Assembly (NCBI GenBank): GCA_001642005.1
Contig: LWCA01000511.1
Location: forward strand, 1-25,037
Direction: 5' to 3'
DNA: 25,037 nucleotides
From: Intoshia linei
Lineage: Eukaryota; Orthonectida; Rhopaluridae
Positions 55-25,037 of this stretch are shown one piece after another. Within the stretch, counting starts at the first letter, position 1, and the number at the start of each line of letters is the position of its first letter. The notes below the pieces were generated by a model. The model searched no databases, was not told the origin of the DNA, and worked only from the letters and a program-made list of their open reading frames with translations. A program made the position numbers and the translations under genes.

Positions 55-636
55 TTAATCGTTTTCTTTCCAATTTTGATGTAACTTTGCCCATTCCATC
101 CTTCATTTTTTCATTCGTGTTGAAAGGAGGGGTTTTCGAATTTTTTTGTATGATTTGTATCCTGCATCTACAAGTTTACGGTTCACTGTTTTTCTTGATA
201 AATTAATATTTTTGGTTTTAAGTTTAGATACGATTTCATTGCAGTTGGAATATCTGTTTTCCAGTGCGGTTCTAATAATAATTCTATCAGTTCTTTTATC
301 TGTTCCATTTTTCCTGTCGCAGTTTTTCCTTTTGGATACATTCAATCCGTCTGTTTTTGCGTTACTTTTTTTTAGCAAAGATACATATGATTGTGAATAC
401 ACCAATTCTATCACAATTTTTTTTTGACTCCAATTAGTATTTTCTATTAAACCAATTATAATAGATTTTTTTTCAGAAGAAATTTCCTGTTTTTTTCCCA
501 TAGCAGATGAAGAAATTTCAAAAATAAAAATAAACGTGCAGAACTATAACAACGATAAGATTTATATTAAAACGATAATAGCACCGATTACGTGAATAAC
601 AAAGAGAAGTTAATATTTTTGTCTCTCTATAGTGTA
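55..636 (-). pseudogene. Tc1-like transposase relic with 5' terminal repeat candidate
   Basis: An ATG at 501 (minus strand) opens a 132-codon frame. It reads as the N-terminal DNA-binding half of a Tc1/mariner-superfamily transposase: an SQKKIVIEL...SQSYVSLL helix-turn-helix, a lysine-rich linker, a second HTH (NLSRKTVNRKLVDAGYKSY), then the typical KPLL..R.KK. A TGA at 103-105 interrupts it. Past that stop the same frame goes on with RMEWAKLHQNW, which in Tc1 proteins follows directly, then meets a TAA at 55-57 where family members have Trp (D-W-S-K-V). The catalytic DDE part would lie beyond base 1. On the 5' side a CACTATAGAGAGACAAAAAT end at 634, next to TA at 635-636, looks like the outer tip of a Tc1 terminal inverted repeat with its TA target site. 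Two in-frame stops make it a dead copy. The family call is strong; the exact terminus is tentative. Confidence 0.8.
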
Positions 637-3027: not shown

Positions 3028-4288
3028 ATGACTGATGCAAGCACAACAAGTGCTTCAAAGGGGTTTATAGCTGGAGGCGTAGCTGGTATGTCAATGGTTA
3101 TAACATGTCATCCACTCGATACTTTGAAAGTACGCATGCAAACAGGAGAATCTCAATCAATTATTCGATATTTGACAAATATGTTAAAAAATGAGGTTTA
3201 TCAAAATGATATATAACAATTTTTAGGGACCTAGATCTGTATATAAAGGCATGACTGCTCCATTAGCAGGCATTACACCAATTTTTGCCCTTAGCTTTTA
3301 TGGATATAACGTAGGAAAATTGATACAAATGAAGGACGAAAATAGCATTTTATCGTATGCTTTATTGGAGTGCAAAGACCATATTATTCCCTTGACTCCT
3401 TAAGTGTTAAGAGATTATAAAATGTAATCAACTGTTTACAACCTATCATTTTTTTGTGAGTATTTTATTTCCTTAGAACTCGTATTTATTTGTCATGAAT
3501 ACACGGTTAAAGGCACTGATTTTATAGTTACCTATCGTGTTAATTCAGATTTTCACAAATTTTTGCGGCAGGAGTCATTTCTGGAATTTACTCGACAGGT
3601 TAAATTAAATTAAAAGTACGCATGTTTAGTATTAATGGCACCCGGAGAACGTATAAAATGCCTGCTGCAAGTGCAACAATCCTCCAAACAAAAAATATAC
3701 AACGGACCCATCGACTGCGCCAAAAAATTATATAAACAAGGAGGAATACGAAGTGTCTACAAGGGAACAGGTGCTACTCTTTTGAGAGGTAGTTACTATG
3801 AAAATTATTGCACATAAAATTAGATCTTCCTGCGTCAGGTGTATATTTTTCATCATATGAATATTTGAAATATTTATTTACTCCAACTGGAACAAGGTAA
3901 TTTTAACAATGACTGAAAAATGTTATAGTGGCAAAGATTTATCATCAAGTAGAACATTAATGGCAGGTGGTATAGCAGGAATGTTGAACTGGACAGTTTG
4001 TATGCCACCTGATGTTGCAAAGTCCATTTACCAAACAGGTTGCGTATATTAAAACTAAAACTAAACATATCAAATAGCCCCAGAAGGAAAATACAAAGGG
4101 TTATATAGTGTTTTTACTGAAATTATGAAGAAGGACGGATTGAAAGGATTTTATCGTGGTGCTACTGCAGTGTATCTTAGGGCTTTTCCAGCAAACGCTG
4201 TATTCCACGATTGATTATTTTTAATTCTATTTAGATAATTTTTTTTATGTACGAAGCTACAATGAAATCACTAAATAAAATTTATTAA
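3028..4288 (+). CDS. SLC25A20: Mitochondrial carnitine/acylcarnitine carrier, 8 exons
   Basis: Exons: 3028-3195, 3227-3354, 3549-3598, 3630-3788, 3824-3896, 3929-4038, 4078-4199, 4235-4288, giving 287 aa (vertebrate forms about 300). It is an SLC25 inner-membrane exchanger that swaps acylcarnitines for carnitine for beta-oxidation. Three carrier signatures are present: PLDTLK (29-34), PGERIK (120-125) and PPDVAK (219-224). Carnitine-carrier hallmarks are [20 protein letters not shown] (the Arg-Asp pair used in substrate binding) and LRAFPANA. The start ATG sits just before [11 protein letters not shown]; an upstream in-frame ATG at 2968 would add 20 residues. The introns are 31, 194, 31, 35, 32, 39 and 35 bp, all GT-AG. 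The first matrix loop is about 10 residues shorter than in vertebrates, and the Arg of K-S-R in repeat 3 is Ile. An AATAAA at 4274-4279 lies inside the last exon. The stop overlaps the convergent mL64 stop. Confidence 0.94.
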
Positions 4289-5082
4289 TTTGACTTGGCA
4301 AGTTGAACACTTTGTTTTAGCATTTCAATGCGTTTTTGAGTGGAAACATCTTTATTATCCTTTTTGCTTAATTTTTTTTCTATTTTAATTCGTTCTTCAT
4401 TTTGTTTGACTAACTTTTCATACCTGGGATCACGTTTATCAATTTCATAACCATAATATTTTTTGACCATTTTCTTAAGTTGCTCTTCTTTTTTAATTGC
4501 ATATTCTAGATTAACATTCTCCTTTTCATGCATACTTATCAATTTCTGGTGGTGTATGTTCATTTTATCTAAGGCTTCATCAATCTCTTTTTCTCTAAAT
4601 TAAAATCAATTAATCAAAATCTTTAAAAATTACTTTTCGTAGATATCGTTTTGTTTATCTATTGCAGACTGTTTTACTTTTTCAACCAGTTCTTCTGTAC
4701 CCATTTCATTTGATCTTTCTTGGCAAAGTTTTGCAAATTCTTTACCATGCGGCCAAAATAATCCATTCGGAGCTCCTATTTTTTCTGGTCCAAATTTTAT
4801 TGCCATTTTTCTTATATTGTTCATTTGATAATCATAGTCGTATATAGGTTTAGGTATTTTGGTTAATCGATGTACTACCTTGGAGGGAAGTTTACTTTTT
4901 AAAAGATTCGATATTTGGTATTTCTCAGGTTTAGGAGGATAATTTAAATAGTCGTTTTCTTTAAAACCATTCACATTGTTGTTAATTTCCATTGCTGTAA
5001 GTATCTCATCTCCTACATTGTAGGATTTAAAGGTTCGCACTTGCATCCAACATGTTCCAACGCGAAAATTTTTCAATTTCAT
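4285..5082 (-). CDS. GADD45GIP1: Mitochondrial large-subunit ribosomal protein mL64 (CRIF1/GADD45GIP1)
   Basis: Exons 5082-4634 and 4594-4285 (minus), separated by a 39-bp intron (GTAATT...TTTAG), give 252 aa, a little longer than the human protein (about 220). Matches to the family are the F-G-P...APNGLFWPHGKEFAKL segment (human has YGAASGVVPGSLWPSPEQL) and the later YYGYEIDKRDPRYEKL segment (human GYQVDPRSARFQEL), followed by a lysine-rich helical tail. In other animals this protein sits at the mitoribosome exit tunnel and helps insert nascent membrane proteins. The basic, Arg/Lys-rich N-terminus is compatible with a mitochondrial presequence. The middle region, around the exon junction, is strongly charged and predicted coiled coil by eye. 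The stop TAA (4287-4285) overlaps the carrier's stop on the other strand, and an AATAAA (minus, 4286-4281) overlaps it too. Confidence 0.86.
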
Positions 5083-7882: not shown

Positions 7883-10800
7883 TTACACAGAGTCATTTGG
7901 ATCTGCAAGTATGGAATATGTATGCTTAAAAAGATGTGAACAGTTGACTATCGAATTACGATTAAATGAAGAGGATATATTGTTCCATCGAAGTTCGCTA
8001 GCCAATTCATCAATAATGTAAATTAAATGTTGTATAGACTAAAATACATAATAAATAAAAATTTGTAATACGAACCAAAGTATGAATGAAATTGTAAATA
8101 GCCTTTTTTTCTGGTCGCAGGACAACTTTTCTAATATCTGCACAAAAAAATTCGATGGAGTCACTATTTACTTTAACTTTTGTATGAGATCTAGATAAAA
8201 TAAATATTATAGATAAATATAAAAAAAATACTTGTAATACGGATGACCAACAGAAAAAAACGTTATTCTATACATTGTATAATCACATGAAACTAGAGTA
8301 AAAACGTTTAATCGAATTAACGGATCAGTTATTTCACATTCAAAATCATCTACCACTTGTAAAAATCTAAGTCATATCGTGTTATTATTTTAAATTGTTT
8401 GATAAATTAAAAATAAATATACATTTGCTTAATAATGGAATGATTGGCCATATCGTGTAAAGTTTTTAAAATTTGATTTCTAAAATTAAAATTAAAAAGT
8501 ATATTGAAATATAAACCTATCTGTATTAAATTTACGACGATATAATTTTCCTTTACAAGCGTATAACTGCTTCTTAGAAATTTCCCCCTGTAAGCTTCTC
8601 GATGGAGGAAGCCAACAATAATTCATATTTTCATTAATTTGGAACTGGTGCCATATTTTCAACAAACACATTTTCATTTTACTCATTAATACACTCTCAT
8701 TTACAACGTCATTTCGTGATGCCTTTGATGGTTTATCTTTAGAAATTTCGTCAGTCTAAAATTAATCAAATTGATAAAACACCTGATTTAATCATTGATA
8801 GTCAGTTATGAAATATTTAGTTGAAAATAAAAATAACATTTTATTAATTAAACTATGTATTTATCGTGCAATTACATTACAAATACTATATTTTTATTTA
8901 AATAATTAATTACTAGTTAAATCTGTTAAAATAATCTCACAAAACTAATTTTTACTTTGTTGTAATTTATAATTTCAAATTCTACACAAGTATGATTACC
9001 TCGATATGATTGGCATATTTTTGCATTAAGAAAAATGACAATTTTCCGCCTCCAATTAACTAAAAAATGAAATAAATTAAAAAAAATGCAAAGAACCTCA
9101 CAGGTAATAACATTTTCATAAATAGAGGTACAAATAGTATCAGAAAATTGAACACACTCTGAACAAATAACTGCAAAAAGTTCTCTACAAAATAAGACAT
9201 TTTGCGCTTCATTTAAAATAGTATTAATAGGATCAAATTGACTTGGTACAGTTTTCACAAAATCGTTAATTGAAACATTAAACGACAAAATATTATCTAC
9301 ACTCTGATCAGAATTTGAAAGTGTCACTAGAATCCAAGCTACAGCTTGCAAATTTGTTGGTAAAACAGCATTTAGTAATTTAAATTTTTGATGTTTAGAT
9401 TCATGTAAAATTTTATTTCTTTTAATTTCAATTATCCCCGTTTCCCAAAAATGCGATCCAGCGCTCCTGAAACTGACATCTACGTATATTTTATCATTTC
9501 TACTTATCACACGCCAGTGTTTGCATAAATTCAACAATTGAGATTTATATTCTGCATTTAATTTCAATGTTTCAAATGAAGGTTGTAGTGTAGAAAGGCC
9601 AGAACGTAAAGCTATAGATATAATTTGTGCAACCTAATTGTTAAATTTTAAAATTTTATCACAAAAATAAAAATACATTTCTTTGTAAAGATAGTTCTAC
9701 TAAATTTTCAGCATCTTGTGGTTTTGAATTTGGTTCATTTTCTGTAAAATCTATACAATAATATTTTCCATTTCTTAATATTTTTAATAAATCCAACAAT
9801 CCACAAACTTCTGTTAACGAAAGTCTAAAAACAAATTACAAAATGAAACAATCGAAAAAATCGAAAAAATGTTAAATCATTCGTTCATCAGGGATGAATC
9901 ATTTTCTTATTTCTATATGACAATAGCGATTATTAAATTATATTATTTAATTAATTGTACTCGTAAAATGCCTTTATATTATTGGGAAACAGTAAATATA
10001 TTTAAATTTTCATAATATAAAAATTATATATTACCAAACTGCACAACGAAATTTTGAGAATATTTTTTACCAGACCGTAAATGGAGAGTCTTGTAAGATT
10101 TTTTTAATCAAACTGCAAAAAGGAATTTTAGATTATTTTTATACGAAACAGTAGAAAAGAATTTTCAAAATATTTCTCTACCAAACCGTAAATGGAGACT
10201 TTTGTAAGATTTTTTTTAATCAAACTGCATGGAATAGTGATTGTAATTTACCGGGAAAAATAAAAATTTTTTATTCATATATAATAGAAAAGATTTCGTA
10301 AAATCGTATTTTTGAAAAGAATATCGGTGTAAGTCAATTTTTCAATAAGGGCTTAAAATGGTATTTTTATTAGTAGTGGGATTTTTGAAATAGTTAAATT
10401 TTAAATATTACAATTTATAATATAATCATATTTTCATAGTAATAACAAATATAAATCAAATACAGGTATGTCTCAATTTTTTTCGGAAAATCCCGGAAAT
10501 TATTAAATATCCCGGGAATTTTGTCCCGGCACAATCACTAGCAAGAAGGAATTTTAGATTATTTTTTTACGAAACAGTAGAAGGAAATTTTCAGAATATT
10601 TTTTTAGCAAACCTTGAAGGGTAGTTTTTACGAATATTTTTTTAACGAAACACTTCAAAGTGAATTTTCAGAATAGTGATTTCCAAACTTTAATGGGGAG
10701 GGTTTTTTAATATTTCTTTAACCAAACCCTTGAATGGGATTTTGAAGATTTTTTTACCAAACATTTGAAAGTGAATTTTCAGATTATTTTTTTACGAAAC

Positions 10801-11810
10801 AGTAGAAGGGAATTTTCAGAATAATTTTTTAACCAAATATTAAAGGGGATTTTTAGATTATTTCTTGACCCTCCTCTTCAAGGTTTGGTAAAATTATATT
10901 CTCAAAATTCCAATTTGAAGTTTGGTAAAAAATATGTTCATAATATATAATGTATAATTTTTATATTCTGAAGATTTAGACTCATTTACTGAGACATATT
11001 TCCCTAAAATCTATATTATTACACGCTATATTATTACCAATATTGCAGGTCATTTCATTTCATATAATTAATAATCAACCATTATTATAATCATTAATCA
11101 AGAAAAAAATAAAATGTTTTACGTATATAAAGCTTTTAAATTAAACCGAAAAAGCTTTAGTATAATTGTGATGCTAGTCATTTTAAGTTAAAATTTCATT
11201 GAATTTTTGTACTTTAGTTAAATTTAGTCCGTTAGATTAACTTAATCACTAATTTTTCTGTTAAATAGGAATTATCCTGAATATACAACTTAGAGGTGAA
11301 TTTACCATGATCGGGTCCCGAAAAATAACCTAAATATAAATTAAGTCTCTTCATGGGCATATATTTGATATTTTAAATTTGGTACACAAAACAATTATGA
11401 CAACATAATGGTCCATTTAAAAAATTGGTTGAGTTAATAATAAATTTTTTTGCTTTGTGGTTCCTTAATTTTTTAAATTTTCTTGCGATCCTGGGGATTT
11501 TTCATGGACCCAAATTGGATAACGCTGAAACATATCATAAGCCATCAATATTTATACTCACTTTAAATTTTCCAAAATATTGTTCCATCTAGATCGTGTT
11601 GATAAAATGGCTTCTTTATGTTGATCGATTATTGGTCCTTGAATACATTTAATTTTATTTTTAAATTTTTTTGATGATGTCAATTTTCTAAAATGTATAC
11701 ATAAAAACGTTGAAATACTATCAAAACTCTTTATATATTATATTTTCATTTAATTCAATTTTATCTATTGATAGTTCATCTTTTGGTAAAAGGTTTAATC
11801 GATACGCCAT
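7883..11810 (-). CDS. MED17: Mediator complex subunit 17, 10 exons
   Basis: Exons (minus): 11810-11728, 11687-11562, 9824-9677, 9633-9102, 9059-8956, 8755-8517, 8479-8423, 8366-8232, 8190-8076, 8038-7883, giving 564 aa (human about 650). MED17 is the central scaffold of the Mediator head module, required for RNA polymerase II transcription. Diagnostic stretches are RWNNILENLKLSLTEVCGLL (exons 2-3), HWRV...DVSFRSAGSHF (human HWK..GDLSYRSAGSLF) and LNEAQNVLFCRELFA (human LEAAQNVLLCKEIFA); the C-terminal half aligns loosely. Introns are 40, 1737, 43, 42, 200, 37, 56, 41 and 37 bp, all GT-AG. The intron 4 and intron 5 junctions were chosen by frame and homology; alternatives exist for the exon 5 donor. 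Intron 2 carries the foldback element. The N-terminal acidic region of vertebrate MED17 is largely missing. It is divergent from p38, with about 1.2 kb between the starts. Confidence 0.93.
10014..10967. mobile_element. Foldback element with about 37-bp subrepeats, in MED17 intron 2
   Basis: The ends are long imperfect inverted repeats. The left end reads AATATAAAAATTATA, a short spacer, TTACCAAACT...AAATTTTGAGAATAT. The complement of the right end reads AATATAAAAATTATAC, a longer spacer, TTACCAAACT...AATTTTGAGAATAT. Between them lie degenerate direct units of about 37 bp with consensus A-C-c-A-A-A-c-n-g-t-A...G-G-A-A-T-T-T-T-c-A-G-A-a-T-A-T-T-T-T-T-T. In the left part three units form a higher-order repeat: the ACC(A/G)ACCGTAAATGGAGA unit recurs at 10069 and 10180, 111 bp apart. 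At about 10880-10945 the units switch orientation. It is interrupted by a smaller element at 10235-10540. No clear target duplication and no coding frame. Confidence 0.7.
10235..10540. mobile_element. hAT-type MITE, 306 bp, nested in the foldback element
   Basis: Termini TAGTGATTGT...CCGGGA and, inverted, TAGTGATTGTGCCGGGAC; further CCCGG motifs lie near the right end. The flanks GCATGGAA (10227-10234) and GCAAGAAG (10541-10548) match at 5 of 8. Removing the insert restores the local subrepeat: the intact sister unit at about 10105-10140 reads AATCAAACTGC, AAAAAGGAATTTTAG without interruption, as an empty site would. Its core (about 10293-10395) is homologous to part of the 6464-7064 element. 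Confidence 0.8.
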
Positions 11811-12998: not shown

Positions 12999-15900
12999 AT
13001 GAATTCAAATTTACCTCGATCTAATTCTGAACCTATTTCTACTACTACTGGTGAGTACATTGAAAATTATGTTACAAAATTAAATAAAACCAATTGGAAA
13101 GTTCCATTGTATTACCAACAATTGACTAGTTTTGGTTTCGGAACTTACGGCCAAGTGTGGTAACATTTGATCATAATTGCTAAATGTATATTAAACATTT
13201 AGTAAAGCAATGGACACTAAGCGTAATCGTTGGGTAGCCATAAAAAAATTGGCTCGACCTTTTTCATCTAGTGCCCATGCTAAACGAACTTTTCGTGAAA
13301 TATTTTTACTTAAACGTTTAAAACACGATAATGTAATTTTATTAATGTAAATCTATGTTTATTTTTCAATTATGTAAAAATAATATTGATTGATTTATAT
13401 TTACATTTTAATTTTATTATTATTGCCACAATTCATTGTGGCCATGTTTAAAATTAAAATTTTTTTTATATTAATACTTTTAAACAGATAATAAAACTTT
13501 TCGAACTATACTCTTCGGATAATGATTATGCATCTCTCCATGATATGTTTGTTTTTTTGTTTTAATTTCAAGATTTTTTAGATATATTATTACAGAATTA
13601 ATGGGTGGAGATTTAAGCAATGTTATTAAATCTCAACAACTTTCTCCAGATCATATTGTATTTATTTCTTACCAAATATTGCGTGGATTAAAGGTATACT
13701 ATTTGTATTAATTAAGATTCAAATCAGACCCTTTTAAGATTGTTTACAAAGTTTATTATCTATATAATATGTTTTGGTTAGTTTCGTTTTGCAAAGTAAC
13801 CTTATAACGAACATTGAATATTCAACCCTAAATTATTTGTTATTTTATCTACCTTTATGATGTATTGTTTTTAAATTGTATCCGATATATTGTTAATATA
13901 TACATTTTAGTTTATTCATTCAGCGGGAGTGATACATCGGGTACTTTTATTTTTGAATTATTCCATTATCTTTGAAAATAATTATAATTTCTTGTCAAAA
14001 ATTAATTATATTAAAGGATTTGAAACCGGCAAACATTGGCATCAGCGAAAATTGTGATGTTAAGGTAATTTCATATTTATGGTGAATATTTTAAAATTTT
14101 TGAGGTAATGAAACTATTATTTTTTAAAATTTTGGTTAACAATTTGCTAACAACTAACCTTTTTATCGTTAACAAATTTAAAATACTCGATACATGTTTT
14201 TATTTAATTATTTATAGGTTGCTTCAAAACGCAGTCTACAATCTAGACTTTTTATAATTATAATCTGAAATACTGAATAAAAATTTTTCATTTTTTCACA
14301 AATTGTTCTTCTTGATTATTATGTACTTTGTATAATTTTAAATCCAACTTAAATTTAATATTTAAAAAATATTGGTTGGTATTAAAATTTATGTTAAAAG
14401 TTATTTTTCACCGGGAATACGTCGATTTCTGGGGTTGCAATTTTGTATTGATATCAACTGGAATCAGCTGTATCACAATAGTCTCTTTTAATTATAGGAC
14501 CATTATTTATTTCAAATTTTTCGAAAATAAAAAACAATTCATACTAAACTGCTTTTTTGGTCGTAAAGGCGTCACTCATTTAGATTCAATTTTTGTGTGT
14601 TAACAGGATACAACTGTATTATCTGTAATTTTTGTAAAATTCTATAGCTGTTTTCTCATTTAAAAAAGGTAATCTGTTGTTTTGAGCGTGAAAATCATCT
14701 TTTTTTAAGTTGCCATTTATGATGATGTTATGATTTTAAAAACTATGCCAGAATTTGTTTTATTAAAATTTTGGGCTGATTTTATTTTTAAATAAAATGT
14801 CAAATTTGGTTTTGACCCTGAAGGATTCACATTCGGAAACTGAAAAATAAATATCAACATCCCCATCGAAAAACTGTATTAGAAATTGGGGTTTTTTTAA
14901 ATTCTACTACTGATAATTTTTTAAATATACTGTAACGCAAACATTCAATTTTATATTAGTAAGAGATTACTTACGTATTCAGTTATTTTACAAACAATGA
15001 TAATTTATTGAATTTTGAAGATTTTATTTACACTATTTGTTTAAAAACACAATTATTTAAAATGGTACTGATTAAATACCATCTCACTCAAGGATTTTGT
15101 TAGTTTTTGCATTACTAATATGGTTATAATTGTTGATTGTATTCTATTTCATTTTTCCTAAATCAGAATTCCTAACTTAGTTATAATGTTGTTACTGGTA
15201 TAGCAAAACCTTGATAACTAAGTTGAGACGTGGAAAGTTTATTTGAATTAAAAAAATGGACATGGGTGGAGTATGACACAGGCGTATGGAACCGAACAAA
15301 AAATTAAGGACACGGGAAATTTTACTGGCTTTAATATCAAAATATTTTTAACAAAAATGTTTCATCGATATAATATAATACATTCTGTGATTTAAATTAA
15401 GTTGATTAAAATTGATTTATTGTCATTAAAAATTAAAATTTTTATCTGTATTTTGACTTAAATTATGGAGAAGTATGTACGGCTAGGGGAAATTATATAG
15501 GCCTTTTAGAAATTTGTGGAATTTTGTGAACCGGACCACATCCAGGAAAATTTCTGGTCAAAATGATATAAAACCCTTGGGTAACACTCGTATCGACCAT
15601 CAATGTCGAGTAAAAAACTAATTTTTTTAATTAAGATTCTCGATTTTGGCTTAGCTCGTCAATCTGAAGATGTAATGACGGGATATATATCTACACGGTG
15701 GTATAGAGCTCCAGAAGTCATGTTAAATTGGATGTGTTACACTGAAAAAGGTACTTGGTATTAATTTTAGAAATTTTCTGTACTCATTATATTTATTAGT
15801 GGATATTTGGTCAGTTGGTTGCATCATGATTGAAATGTTGACTCAAAAAGTGCTTTTCCCAGGGAATGAACGTAATTATTTAATTCATCATAATATTACA

Positions 15901-16601
15901 TTACATTTGTATTTAATGTTTTAGACGTTGATCAATTGAATAAAATTCTGGCTTTATTGGGTAAACCATCAAACGAATTAATTGAAAGTATTAATTCTAT
16001 TGAGGTTTTATTTATTTTTATTGAAAAAATATTATTTATGTAGGCTCGTACATATGTAAAAAATTTACCCCCTTGGAGAAGACAAAACTTTTGTGAAATT
16101 TTTCCAATGATGTCGATAACAGGTTATTTTAAAAAATATTCACTTTAATATATTGTAATGTACAATAATTTAATATGTATTAACGTACAGTGCACTGCAG
16201 TGTATAACATGTAAGTATTTTTGAAAATATGCCAATAAATCGATTTATTCCTATGTAAAACAAAATATATTGGTTTATTTGATTTAAAAGAATGGAATGT
16301 TTAAGCTAATTAGTGATTTAAATAAATGGAATGTTTAAAGCTAATTATTTATTTAGAATTGGATCTATATGGAAATATTTTTATTTTAAACCCAACAAAC
16401 CGATATTCCTCAATAGATTGTTTGGCTCACCCCTACTTTGAAAAATTTGCAAACCCAGAGGATGAACCCACCTGTACACCTGTAGATACATCTTTAGAGA
16501 AGAAGGATTTACTTTTAATCGAATGGAAAAGTAATTTTATTAATTTTAAGCGAATCAACTAATTTAATTTAGAATGTATATACGATGAAATAATTGAATA
16601 A
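12999..16601 (+). CDS. MAPK14: p38-type mitogen-activated protein kinase, 12 exons
   Basis: Exons: 12999-13159, 13203-13332, 13488-13546, 13582-13693, 13911-13940, 14017-14064, 15636-15750, 15800-15871, 15925-16004, 16044-16122, 16357-16530, 16573-16601, giving 362 aa (human p38alpha 360). A stress-activated Ser/Thr kinase. Motifs: Gly-loop GFGTYG (46-51), catalytic Lys68 in VAIKK, gatekeeper Thr121 ([11 protein letters not shown]), HRDLKPAN with Asp165, DFG 183-185, activation loop T-G-Y at 195-197, RWYRAPE. The TGY motif and the loop length identify p38 rather than ERK (TEY) or JNK (TPY). The common-docking area keeps an acidic P-E-D-E-P. The C-terminus is cut short after YDEIIE. Introns range from 35 to 1571 bp, all GT-AG; intron 6 is bloated by repeats. 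An AATAAA (16597-16602) overlaps the stop codon. The symbol denotes the family; paralogue orthology is not tested. Confidence 0.96.
14690..14905 (+). repeat. Dispersed repeat family, copy 2 (p38 intron 6)
   Basis: It shares ordered blocks with copy 1 at 2296-2530: GATGATGTTATGATTTTAAA, GCCAGAATTTG, AAATTTGGTTTTGACCCTGA, TTCGGAAACTGAAA and AAAACTGTATTAGAAATT. It is decayed and non-coding. The frame at 14328-14603 just upstream starts at TTG, lies in the intron and has no family features. Confidence 0.6.
15174..15224. repeat. 11-bp inverted repeat in p38 intron 6
   Basis: AACTTAGTTAT at 15174-15184 pairs perfectly with ATAACTAAGTT at 15214-15224 around a 29-base loop. The stem does not extend in either direction, so it is too short for a microRNA precursor. 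The arm resembles that of the 1012-1042 hairpin, which suggests related elements. Confidence 0.4.
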
Positions 16602-19600: not shown

Positions 19601-20500
19601 GGTGATTTTTAATTATGTTTAATTATTTCTGAATATATAATTTTTTTAAATTTAAATTTATGATAATGTTTATGATTTTAAAATCCGTATCAGTGTATAT
19701 ATATTTTTAAATTCTCCAACTCGTTCTATTTTCAAAATAAGGACTATTGGGGTTTTTGACCCGTAAAGTATGAGTTTGAGAGGTTGAACTTTATTTTATT
19801 ATTACCCGGAAAAAACTGTAATTGAAATGAGGACTTTATAAAATTCTAAGACGGGTAGTTATTGAAATAAAATAAAACACACACAAACAAATATTGCGTA
19901 GAATATTATATAAGTAAGGATATCGTGGTTTTATTTTTAAATATATTTTACCATGTTTCGATTTCGCAAGAAATGTAATTAACCCTGGGAATGGTTTGAA
20001 AACTAAATGACAAATTTTATTCAAATCAAAATATTATGTCAACAACCTTTTATATGTAAATGCAAGTTTAGAAATGTCATCTCTTCTTTTTCGATAGTCT
20101 TCGTCTCCATAAGCCTATAAAGTAAAAATTGAAACTGATTTAGATCCAAGTTAGTAAACTAAGTGTAATTCAGTACAATACTAAATGTAGTTAGAATTGC
20201 GTTAACACAATCTTACATTTATAAAATATCTATAAAAACTACATACCGATTCATAAAATGTATAATTTGTTTCATATTATTGATTATTATATATTTACAG
20301 TTAAAAAATGTTGAAGGGTTATAGTTTTTAAAGAAATTTTGATATAAAAAATAATCCTTAGTAAGGATTACCCATGTAAAATTAATAAATTAGATTACCG
20401 GGTGATCTGTTTTAACATCTGGATAAAATTTATCTATAACATGACAACACTGATCCAAAATTGTCTCGTCTATTGAAAGAGTATTTGAAATTTTGTCCAT
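16619..20500 (-). CDS. TH: Tyrosine 3-hydroxylase (aromatic amino acid hydroxylase), 9 exons
   Basis: Exons (minus): 20500-20399, 20114-20047, 18596-18495, 18464-18322, 17648-17585, 17513-17442, 17398-17272, 17026-16785, 16742-16619, giving 347 aa. It makes L-DOPA from tyrosine using iron, tetrahydropterin and O2. Fe ligands are His188 and His193 (HELLGHVPM) and Glu233 (YWFTMEYG). Tyrosine-type marks are [26 protein letters not shown], and Asp286 in YDDSMYQ, which aligns with the Asp (rat Asp425) that favours tyrosine over phenylalanine. The first exons ([35 protein letters not shown]) match the start of the catalytic domain. No N-terminal ACT/regulatory domain and no C-terminal tetramerisation helix are present. 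The exon 2/3 junction is chosen by frame and inserts about 15 unmatched residues; the usual GDPIPRVEYT is diverged. Introns 284, 1450, 30, 673, 71, 43, 245, 42 bp. Confidence 0.92.
18162..18280. other. Less AT-rich exon-like block inside TH intron 4
   Basis: The block stands out in base composition from the surrounding intron. Plus strand: an ATG at 18182 opens a 32-codon frame ([16 protein letters not shown], then [13 protein letters not shown]). Minus strand: a frame including [17 protein letters not shown] is also open. I cannot tell which, if either, is or was coding, and recognise no family. It is probably a captured gene or transposon fragment. Confidence 0.35.
18600..18655 (+). repeat. 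Shared tract, copy 2 (TH intron 2)
   Basis: GTAAAACTAAATAACTCAGT, a spacer, then GTTGAACACACTAGTATG. It is colinear with 1030-1095. It lies immediately next to the TH exon 3 acceptor I propose, so a repeat insertion may have altered this exon's upstream border. Confidence 0.45.
18644..18949 (-). other. Open frame of 101 codons inside TH intron 2
   Basis: A stop-free minus-strand frame, less AT-rich than its surroundings, with balanced composition ([53 protein letters not shown]). There is no ATG near its start; it follows a TGA at 18952-18950 and ends TAG. Same strand as TH, but it has no similarity to any hydroxylase segment. It could be a decayed transposon frame or an exon of a nested gene. 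No family recognised. Confidence 0.35.
19650..19860 (+). repeat. Dispersed repeat family, copy 3 (TH intron 2)
   Basis: The blocks GATAATGTTTATGATTTTAAA, TTGGGGTTTTTGACCCGTAA, CCCGGAAAAAACTGTAATTG and AAATGAGGAC follow the same order as copies 1 and 2 but are more diverged. The frames on both strands at 19203-19411 are mutual shadows. The remainder of intron 2 (18950-19650) shows nothing else. Confidence 0.45.
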
Positions 20501-21037
20501 ATAATCGTTTTTATAAATTTTTTATTTCAGATATCAGTTTTATATTAAAATGTTTTCACATTAAATATATATAAATAATTATTTTTAATTTACTTTGTTA
20601 GCATTGCAATAAATGCATTTATTTTAATTTATCATAAAAGCAAATAATTATTAATAATAAATTTTTGGTGATTTAAATCCAATTTTAAATGTGTAACCTT
20701 TTATTGGATTTTTAAATAACTATAATGTGTTAACTAACTTAATGTACTATTATAATAAAACTAAAGTGCATATTGTTTGAATGCGCTTTATGTAATGTCT
20801 TTATTAAAATCAGTTAACAAAATTACGACGTATTGTTTTTGTTTACGCTAAAATGTAAAATAAAGTCATAATTTTGTTTTTGAAGAATAGTGCTGTAGAA
20901 ATAAATTGATATAAATGTAATTACCAAAAATTTAGTTTTTACAAATATGTTTGGCCGACTTTCGTATCGTTATTTGATTACTTAAATTACGTATATGCTA
21001 ACAATAGAGTGAATAATAAAGAAGAGTAATTAATTTT
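20501..21037. other. AT-rich region upstream of TH
   Basis: Proximal promoter side of the tyrosine hydroxylase gene. No conserved motif, exon or transposon end could be supported. The distal end borders the periodic motif array. Confidence 0.35.
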
Positions 21038-21361
21038 TCAGTATTTAATTAAAATACTGACATTTTTCAAAAAAAATTTTCTGTATTTTCAACATAAAAT
21101 TGTCAGTATACACACTAAAATATCAGTAATAAAAAGTATTTTGTCAGTATTCAATTACATATTTGTCAGTTTTTAATTGCTTTCTTGTCAGTACATAATT
21201 GCATTTTTGTCAGTATCTATATTAACTAAATCAGTATTCATCAAAAATTGTAAGTAATTCAACAAAAAAGTATATAGAAATAAACAAATTTTATAAAATA
21301 ATATTTTGTCAGTAAATAAATTGAATTGTAAATTTGATGATTTTGGAGTGTCAGTATAAAA
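21038..21361. repeat. 21-22-bp periodic TTGTCAGTA motif array
   Basis: It opens with a palindrome, TCAGTATTT-aatta-AAATACTGA (21038-21060). Copies of (TT)GTCAGTA/TCAGTA follow with the CAGT cytosine at 21104, 21124, 21145, 21167, 21189, 21211, 21232, 21310 and 21352; the gaps are 20, 21, 22, 22, 22, 21, then 78 and 42. Weakened copies at about 21081 and 21252 keep the phase. The spacers are AT-rich and barely conserved; only the motif core is. A direct copy at 21557 and inverted copies (ATACTGACAAA at about 21589, CATACTGACG at about 21611) lie further right and could mark the other end of an element of about 580 bp. Confidence 0.65.
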
Positions 21362-21707
21362 ATTAAAAATCTAGTTTTTGAAATAATACATCATCCACTA
21401 CAGACCCAAGTTAAAACTGAAATATTAAGATACCATATTATACCTACAAACCATATTACAAAAAAAATTAGAAATATTCTATGGTGTTTACACTAGAGAA
21501 TATTTTTTTATGAGAATAAATTATTATTTCCATATATTTTACAAAACATTTTTTGTCAGTTTCATTTTATACAGAACATTCAATTTGAATACTGACAAAT
21601 CAATAAGAAACATACTGACGCAATAAATGCACGCCAATAATAAATTTATATGTATATTTATTTTAGTTTATTTACTAACTGTAAATATAATAAAATCTTA
21701 GCGTAAA

Positions 21708-23393: not shown

Positions 23394-23703
23394 TACAGTG
23401 CGACCTGTCGATAGGGAACACTGGAGATATGGACCATGCCAATATAAGCCATAAAATACAAGTAGAAAAAGACTTACTTTCAAAGAAACAAAGGAAATCT
23501 TAGAGTTCATTGATACTCATGGGTATTGCAGCCAAAGAGATTTAGCTACACGTTTTAAAATCTCTGTTGGTACCATAAATATAATTTTGAAAAACAAAAG
23601 TAGTATACTGGAAGTTAAAAACGACAACTTTAAATCAAAACCTTTTTTAACCCTTACAAGACTGCTGATTTTCAAAATTGAAAGCAACAAATTTCACTTA
23701 TGA
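23394..23703 (+). pseudogene. Tigger/pogo-like transposase remnant (CENP-B HTH) with 5' terminus
   Basis: TA at 23394-23395 is followed by CAGTGCGACCTGTCGATAGG, in the style of a pogo/Tigger terminal inverted repeat with TA target site. A frame at 23455-23703 encodes KRLTFKETKEILEFIDTHG then YCSQRDLATRFKISVGTIN and IILKNKSSILE, the N-terminal CENP-B-type (psq) helix-turn-helix of jerky/Tigger transposases. No ATG precedes it (TAA at 23452-23454) and a TGA ends it after about 82 codons. The second HTH and the DDE domain are absent, so it is a truncated relic. Confidence 0.75.
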
Positions 23704-24660: not shown

Positions 24661-25037
24661 AGTTTCAAAGTAGTTCAAGGTAGTTTTGAAATTATACTAA
24701 AAAAACAAATGGAAAACTATACATATTTCTCCATATGTTTAGATAAAACTAATGATATTAGGGACATGGCTCAAGTTGCTGTCTTTGTTCGTATGATTAA
24801 TAAAGAATTTTATATATCTGAAGAAATGATGGGGATAGTTGTATTAATTGGTACAACAAAGGCACAGGATCTATACAGCGTTGTCATTAATATATTTGAA
24901 ACGTTGAATGTAAATATGATGAAGTTGACAGGAATTGTTATAGACGGCGCAGCTGCAATGATTGGTCAGCACAATAGCGTCGGTACGTTATTGAAAAGGT
25001 ACGCATCGCATAATGGAAATGATAATGTTGTATCTTA
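24661..25037 (+). CDS. hAT-superfamily transposase fragment, runs off the window
   Basis: A frame open from after TAA at 24658-24660 to the last base (ATG at 24709) encodes YFSICLDKTNDIRDMAQVAV, then INKEFYISEEMMGIVVLIGT and GIVIDGAAAMIGQHNSVG. S-x-x-L-D-x-(S/T)-x-D-I and the later DGAxAMxG motif are hallmarks of the RNase H-like core of ZBED/GTF2IRD2-type hAT transposases; the first Asp of the catalytic triad would be in the LDKTND segment and the second in DGAAAM. The window ends before the dimerisation (hATC) domain. Upstream coding sequence is broken, so the copy is probably dead, though this segment has no stop. Confidence 0.8.

Follow-up and report, generated by a model that had tools for sequence, protein, structure and literature searches.

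A GTCAGTA core array upstream of a biopterin-dependent hydroxylase gene of Intoshia linei is one arm of a dispersed, MITE-like DNA transposon

The hydroxylase locus and its core array

The window, by which we mean the whole stretch of 25,037 bp that was analysed (contig LWCA01000511.1 of Intoshia linei, positions 1 to 25,037), contains a hydroxylase gene on the minus strand, the start codon of which was read at 20498-20500. Three downstream exon frames match Biopterin_H, and comparison of one exon with solved structures gave tyrosine hydroxylase (TH) as the best match and TPH2 as a close second. The gene is a biopterin-dependent hydroxylase that is nearest to TH and is not separated from TPH by this one exon. 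The window also carries a gene with a CR6_interact match at 4285-4599 (minus strand), a MED17 gene at 8926-9633 (minus strand; match just below the cut-off), and a p38-like kinase gene at 15585-16562 (plus strand), which was recognised by eye and has a Pkinase match just below the cut-off. A tandem array distinct from the one described below, with a 37-bp unit repeated 8.5 times at 67% matches, lies at 10548-10863. Three further fragments were seen, one with a Tc1/mariner-type HTH at 103-543 (minus strand), one with an HTH and a CENP-B match just below the cut-off at 23455-23703 (plus strand), and one at 24661-25035 (plus strand) with a DUF4371 domain, which is often transposase-related.

A reading made from the sequence only had described a phased array of GTCAGTA motifs upstream of TH, at 0.54-0.86 kb from the start of the gene, and this distance holds for a minus-strand start codon at 20498-20500. 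When one mismatch is allowed, cores on the plus strand start at 21102, 21122, 21143, 21165, 21187, 21209, 21230, 21250, 21308, and 21350. The successive gaps across 21102-21256 are 20, 21, 22, 22, 22, 21, and 20 bp, in agreement with the seven consecutive intervals of 20-22 bp in that reading, and they are followed by gaps of 58 and 42 bp to two more cores (21308-21356). The array was said to begin with a palindrome of the same motif, and TTCAGTATTTAATTAAAATACTGAC, which consists of two facing cores, is present at 21037-21061. Copies in inverse orientation, expected at about 21590-21620, were found at 21590 and 21613.

We compared the region 21038-21361 with shuffled sequence; the lack of enrichment over such sequence had been named as grounds for giving up the array. 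The region holds 10 plus-strand cores with at most one mismatch, 6 exact cores, and 7 core pairs at 20-22 bp, and the corresponding maxima in 2000 dinucleotide shuffles were 6, 2, and 2, so that none of the shuffles reached the observed counts. Among 438 other 324-base blocks of the window (the blocks overlap one another), none contains a core pair at 20-22 bp. The array is real and well above chance, and it is not TH-specific. Tandem Repeats Finder reports a 22-bp unit of 3.5 copies with 76% matches at 21139-21216 and a 23-bp unit of 2 copies at 21064-21109, and the parts of the array that it detects are matched overall at 76-83%. Some adjacent units are thus decayed tandem duplicates.

A 615-bp transposon copy and its dispersed family

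The feature extends past 21361, the limit first given for it, and is part of a larger element of 615 bp at 21021-21635 (plus strand). This element is bracketed by an exact 9-bp direct repeat, AATAATAAA, at 21012-21020 and 21636-21644. Its left terminus (21021-21043, plus strand) carries the family motif GGGGAKTAATTAATTTKTCAGTA, which here begins GAAGAG and has two substitutions, and its right terminus (21613-21635, minus strand) reads GGCGTGCATTTATYGNGTCAGTA inward; aligned copies share these two motifs as their common stops. Along the element lie the palindrome, which is also present in most of 20 left ends inspected, then the left-arm cores, a middle part at 21357-21560 that alignment shows to be common to other copies, and an inverted right-arm core at 21590-21596 (minus strand). 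The inverted cores at 21590-21619 are the remnant of the right arm of this copy, in which the inner right-arm cores of the family majority are missing and, in the alignment, the edge of the gap falls inside a core. The outermost core is 17 bp from the end on the left and right alike, in the window copy and in its subfamily, which we call A. The longest stop-to-stop frame listed within 21021-21635 is 65 aa. Because AATAATAAA lies on both sides, the family ends are paired, and 9-bp target-site duplications (TSDs) are found across copies, 21021-21635 must be a transposon insertion. The GTCAGTA array is the left arm of this element, and the right arm carries the same motif inverted.

The sequence-only reading had proposed a genome search for GTCAGTA arrays as a check, and we carried it out on the 34.65-Mb assembly of 1319 contigs. 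GTCAGTA pairs separated by 12-16 bp number 300 genome-wide, compared with 1 in the reversed control, and a BLAST search with the region gave at least 92 matches (40 of 320 candidates scored). With at most two mismatches, 68 right ends and 49 left ends of subfamily A were counted genome-wide, compared with 0 in the reversed control in both cases. A shorter sister, subfamily B, has the ends GGGAARTATTTTATTT.. and GGCTTGTATTTAT.., for which the genome-wide counts were 77 right and 50 left ends compared with 0 and 0 in the control, in lists that overlap those of subfamily A. The two related subfamilies together have 124 distinct right ends, a total that leaves out 21 subfamily-B matches already in the subfamily-A list, and 92 left ends, a total that leaves out 5 ends common to both lists and 2 inner left ends. 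Recognised family ends lie on 143 of the 1319 contigs. The nematode SL1 leader, searched for in the genome with up to one mismatch, gave 0 matches, an outcome that would not by itself speak against a nematode. By pair, the end sequences are GGGGAKTAATTAATT / GGCGTGCATTTAT and GGGAARTATTTTATTT / GGCTTGTATTTAT, and all four end consensuses start with GG.

A genome-wide pairing, in which each left end was joined to the closest right end facing it at up to 15 kb, gave 63 facing pairs. Subfamily A supplies 31 of them, which are 424-1263 bp long, and subfamily B the other 32, at 195-778 bp. No facing pair in the 34.65-Mb assembly exceeds 1263 bp, and the search thus gave no long copy that might be autonomous. 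The fetched loci hold 35 left ends. Over a distance of 1.3 kb, 33 of them have a facing right end as their nearest one, none has a misoriented one, and two have no right end. An exact 9-bp TSD brackets 21 of these 33 fetched pairs, the window copy included, where cross-pairing gives an expectation of 0.06, and an exact 8-bp TSD brackets 2 of the 33 (expected 0.19). The remaining 10 pairs comprise 3 with inner-type left ends, 3 with a one-mismatch repeat of 8-10 bp, and 4 without a repeat. In three loci (L056, L077, and L072) an inner-type left-end-like sequence follows TTTTGCTGCTGRTGG, and this is perhaps a nested or composite form.

The terminal inverted repeats (TIRs) of subfamily A are inverted core arrays with diverged spacers. 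In subfamily B, one copy (L083) has cores over nearly all of its 279 bp, an exact 9-bp duplication, and TIRs that can be aligned, with mismatches, across about 85 bp. Another (L085) was aligned in its inner part only, and its 9-bp match lies within a T run. The other five of seven fetched subfamily-B copies showed no sure duplication, partly because the fetched stretches were short. The arms of A and B can be aligned with each other, the inner units closely and the outer ones less well, and the array therefore at least partly predates the split between the subfamilies. The family has the fixed-length TSD, the TIRs, and the many short copies of Class II non-autonomous TIR transposons, the short copies being judged from the 63 end pairs of 195-1263 bp, in few of which the contents were read. 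Taken together, these data demonstrate that the element at 21021-21635 belongs to a family of non-autonomous (MITE-like) DNA transposons that is dispersed in the genome and makes 9-bp target duplications, and that its (G)TCAGTA cores are arrayed at each end and point inward from both.

Mutator and Merlin as candidate superfamilies

The genome has 9 MULE-domain matches on 8 contigs and 7 IS1595-type (Merlin) matches, 6 of which are over the cut-off. Recognised family ends are on none of the 8 MULE-domain contigs and none of the 7 IS1595/Merlin contigs of this assembly, which may be incomplete. Core arrays were found in none of the 9 MULE loci, inspected with 1.5-kb flanks (shorter at contig ends, more on two contigs), and each locus has at most 1 exact GTCAGTA and at most 5 scattered TCAGTA; nor were they found in any of the 4 fetched Merlin-type loci of the 7 in the genome. 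At 13 right-end loci that have no left end within 1.3 kb, no transposase was recognised by eye among frames of at least 60 aa in interiors of up to 1.5 kb. Arrays and a recognisable transposase were together in none of the MULE loci, Merlin-type loci, right-end loci, or long end pairs. One MULE ORF, used as the query of a protein search, yielded 11 relatives, which have uninformative names and supply no context. MULE-domain elements at L040 and at L043 with L080 bear a repeat of their own, TTTAGCACTT, which was seen by eye near their ends and is different from the one described here. We also considered hAT elements, in which the TSD is 8 bp, and rejected them on the TSD lengths of 9 bp in 21 of 33 pairs and 8 bp in only 2.

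The TSD of Mutator (MULE) elements is 8-11 bp and typically 9 bp, and the duplication found in 21 of 33 pairs has this typical length. The nearest design is that of Tm1, which PMC3169594 describes as a Mutator/Foldback family of Meloidogyne (root-knot nematodes) with 9-bp TSDs, mostly MITE-like members, and TIRs in which units of about 14 bp with the core TTCAGTAT are repeated a variable number of times. The present family resembles Tm1, as described there, in its 9-bp TSDs, its MITE-like members, its motif-repeat TIRs, and its unlike outer-end motifs. The core is also shared, being TTCAGTAT in Tm1 and (G/T/A)TCAGTA(T) here, and because the motif is short the match could be due to convergence. 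The unit spacing, however, is about 14 bp in Tm1 and 20-23 bp (also 30 and 40-44 bp) here; the terminal 7-mers are CGGTTAA/CCTACCC in that account of Tm1 and GGGGAGT/GGCGTGC or GGGAAGT/GGCTTGT here; and the GA-rich motif D that it gives for Tm1 is absent from the window copy, every purine run in 21021-21635 being shorter than 9. Since the period and the outer motifs differ, the family is not a member of Tm1 as defined.

Other families share parts of this design. The Muta1 and Muta5 MULEs of Aedes aegypti, as described in PMC5225508, likewise have long TIRs, short subterminal tandem repeats, TSDs of 8-9 bp, and hundreds of non-autonomous relatives; they differ in having 12-15-bp repeats and known autonomous copies, and they were compared without the motif sequence. 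Galileo, a Foldback-like element of the P superfamily, has repetitive long TIRs in common with the family according to PMC3688188, but its transposase is of the P superfamily, its TIRs reach 1.2 kb, and its sites are widely spaced, with distances from the end of about 70, 561-577, and 701-718 bp. Among the matches listed by a literature search for GTCAGTA, none deals with a transposon that has this motif.

The best-surviving alternative is that a Merlin (IS1595-type) transposase, and not a MULE, moves the family, with the arrays serving the same job. According to PMC8101967, Merlin has 5'-GG termini and TSDs of 8 or 9 bp, and the family shares both, its four end consensuses starting with GG. 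These ends and the 8-9 bp duplications make Merlin a real rival, and the genome does hold the 7 IS1595-type matches, 6 of them over the cut-off. Against this, the resident Merlin-type loci, four of which were inspected, have TIRs of a kind of their own that are GGGTCTTG-like in 3 of the 4 and unrelated to the family, and none of the four has an array; the TSD here is 9 bp rather than 8 (21 versus 2 of 33 pairs); and motif-repeat TIRs with TTCAGTAT are on record for a MULE. We consider a Merlin origin unlikely, and we infer that the element is of the Mutator (MULE) type, of the Foldback/Phantom kind, and nearest in design to Tm1. Because no transposase gene is linked to the family, this assignment is likely but unproven. 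Among the options offered by the sequence-only reading, the terminal motifs, the inverted arrays, the 9-bp TSDs, and the dispersed family bear out the one of a long-TIR element with a subterminal array, with no linked transposase found. As a whole, we are fairly confident in reading 21021-21635 as a MITE-like, likely Mutator-type Foldback/Phantom element, the core arrays of which are putative transposase docking sites.

Core arrays as putative docking sites

We examined copy-to-copy variation in an alignment of 30 of the 33 pairs, the other three, with their inner-type left ends, being omitted. A variant present in at least 3 copies was counted as shared, and the narrow test covered 18 TCAGTA cores, omitting three poorer core matches at consensus positions 396, 530, and 565. 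Shared variants were found in 3 of 108 TCAGTA columns versus 45 of 363 spacer columns in the 30 aligned copies (Fisher P = 0.002), and when the mask was shifted by -14 to +13 bases the proportion of shared-variant columns was 5.6-20.4%. Singletons, which are probably mostly later decay, were less different (1.56% in cores versus 2.39% in spacers, P = 0.012). The leading G of GTCAGTA is freely variable (8 of 18 columns), and with all 21 seven-base cores the difference is gone (19 of 140 core columns versus 50 of 371 array-spacer columns), the wide-core variants lying largely in the first base and in the three poorer matches. Because the wider core erases the difference, and because the cores were picked by their own consensus, which biases the test, we regard the core constraint as suggestive. 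The fewer variants in TCAGTA fit a need of this sequence for transposition and suggest, without proving, that the cores are candidate transposase-binding sites.

The 432 gaps of up to 110 bp between exact TCAGTA copies in the fetched loci, which are non-independent since the copies share descent, comprise 212 of 20-23 bp, 22 of 30 bp, and 92 of 40-44 bp, but only 5 of 24-29 bp and 4 of 31-39 bp. The proposal that all cores face the same side of the DNA finds support in the right arm, where phase coherence is 0.88 (10.15 bp per turn) and was equalled by 25 of 5000 controls over 10.0-10.6 bp per turn. It does not hold for the left arm at normal pitch, where coherence is 0.46 at 10.0-10.6 bp per turn, was equalled by 1984 of 5000 jittered controls, and reaches 0.90 only at 10.85 bp per turn. 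The strict form of the same-side proposal is therefore weak and borne out only in part.

For Galileo, PMC3688188 reports that the THAP domain of the transposase was shown to bind several sites in the TIR. By analogy with this domain, the arrays would most likely provide multiple docking sites at each end for a trans-acting transposase. In such a mechanism, a transposase provided in trans would dock on multiple cores per end, and this multiple docking would give a short motif adequate grip and specificity. The transposase would then bring the ends together, cut at the GG termini, and insert the element with a 9-bp stagger. The spacing of about two turns would favour side-by-side binding, and selection during the spread of the family may have preserved the cores more than the spacers. 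That this is a Foldback-type family in which docking arrays are under measurable selection, with cores kept, spacers drifted, and gaps quantised at 20-23, 30, and 40-44 bp, we put forward only tentatively. PMC3688188 (2013) calls a binding-site role of Foldback and Phantom tandem repeats untested, and if the proposal is true the family is a natural test of whether Phantom/Foldback motif arrays are cooperative transposase platforms. In any case the family adds a design of the Tm1 type whose period is different, and the variation among its copies is a first suggestive sign of cores kept over spacers.

A decayed minisatellite of 21-22 bp, in which the spacing and the core conservation are relics of tandem duplication, would explain the 22-bp unit of 3.5 copies (76%) reported by Tandem Repeats Finder and the AATTGCAT-like spacers common to adjacent units, and it is favoured by the dependence of the core/spacer difference on the definition of the core. 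The arms are, however, inverted at opposite ends of the element, many units are inherited individually across subfamilies, and shared variants are rarer in TCAGTA than in spacers. The very decayed minisatellite that had been suggested therefore applies to a few adjacent units and not to the array as a whole, for which we think it very unlikely; it may be partly true as an account of the first origin of the units. Least credible of all is a host regulatory array of cooperative protein-binding sites for TH control. Its repeated, near-regularly spaced cores and its distance of 0.54-0.86 kb from the TH start, on the upstream side, speak for it. Against it, 143 of 1319 contigs bear recognised ends of this family and the TSD exactly brackets the window copy, which leaves the TH-specific array of the sequence-only reading unsupported. 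The place of the transposon upstream of TH appears to be one insertion among many, and later co-option of the element at TH may have occurred. That a seeming gene-control array turns out to be an ordinary transposon end calls for caution in reading phased motifs as regulatory.

At one other locus (L001/L003, G000:C22:42555-44672), two inverted right ends flank a bromodomain exon (Pfam match), for which the sole other match in the genome is weak. The neighbouring frames resemble, by eye, the portion of a GCN5/KAT2 gene that encodes the acetyltransferase, and the two that were scanned gave no Pfam match. We rejected a Pack-MULE capture here and take the locus for a resident gene with insertions. 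According to PMC3169594, one member of Tm1 lacks a TSD and bears one and the same motif at its two ends, and the C22 pair is parallel to it. The outer flanks of the two C22 ends mirror each other over at least 21 nt, as would result from reverse copying of one end together with the adjoining flank.
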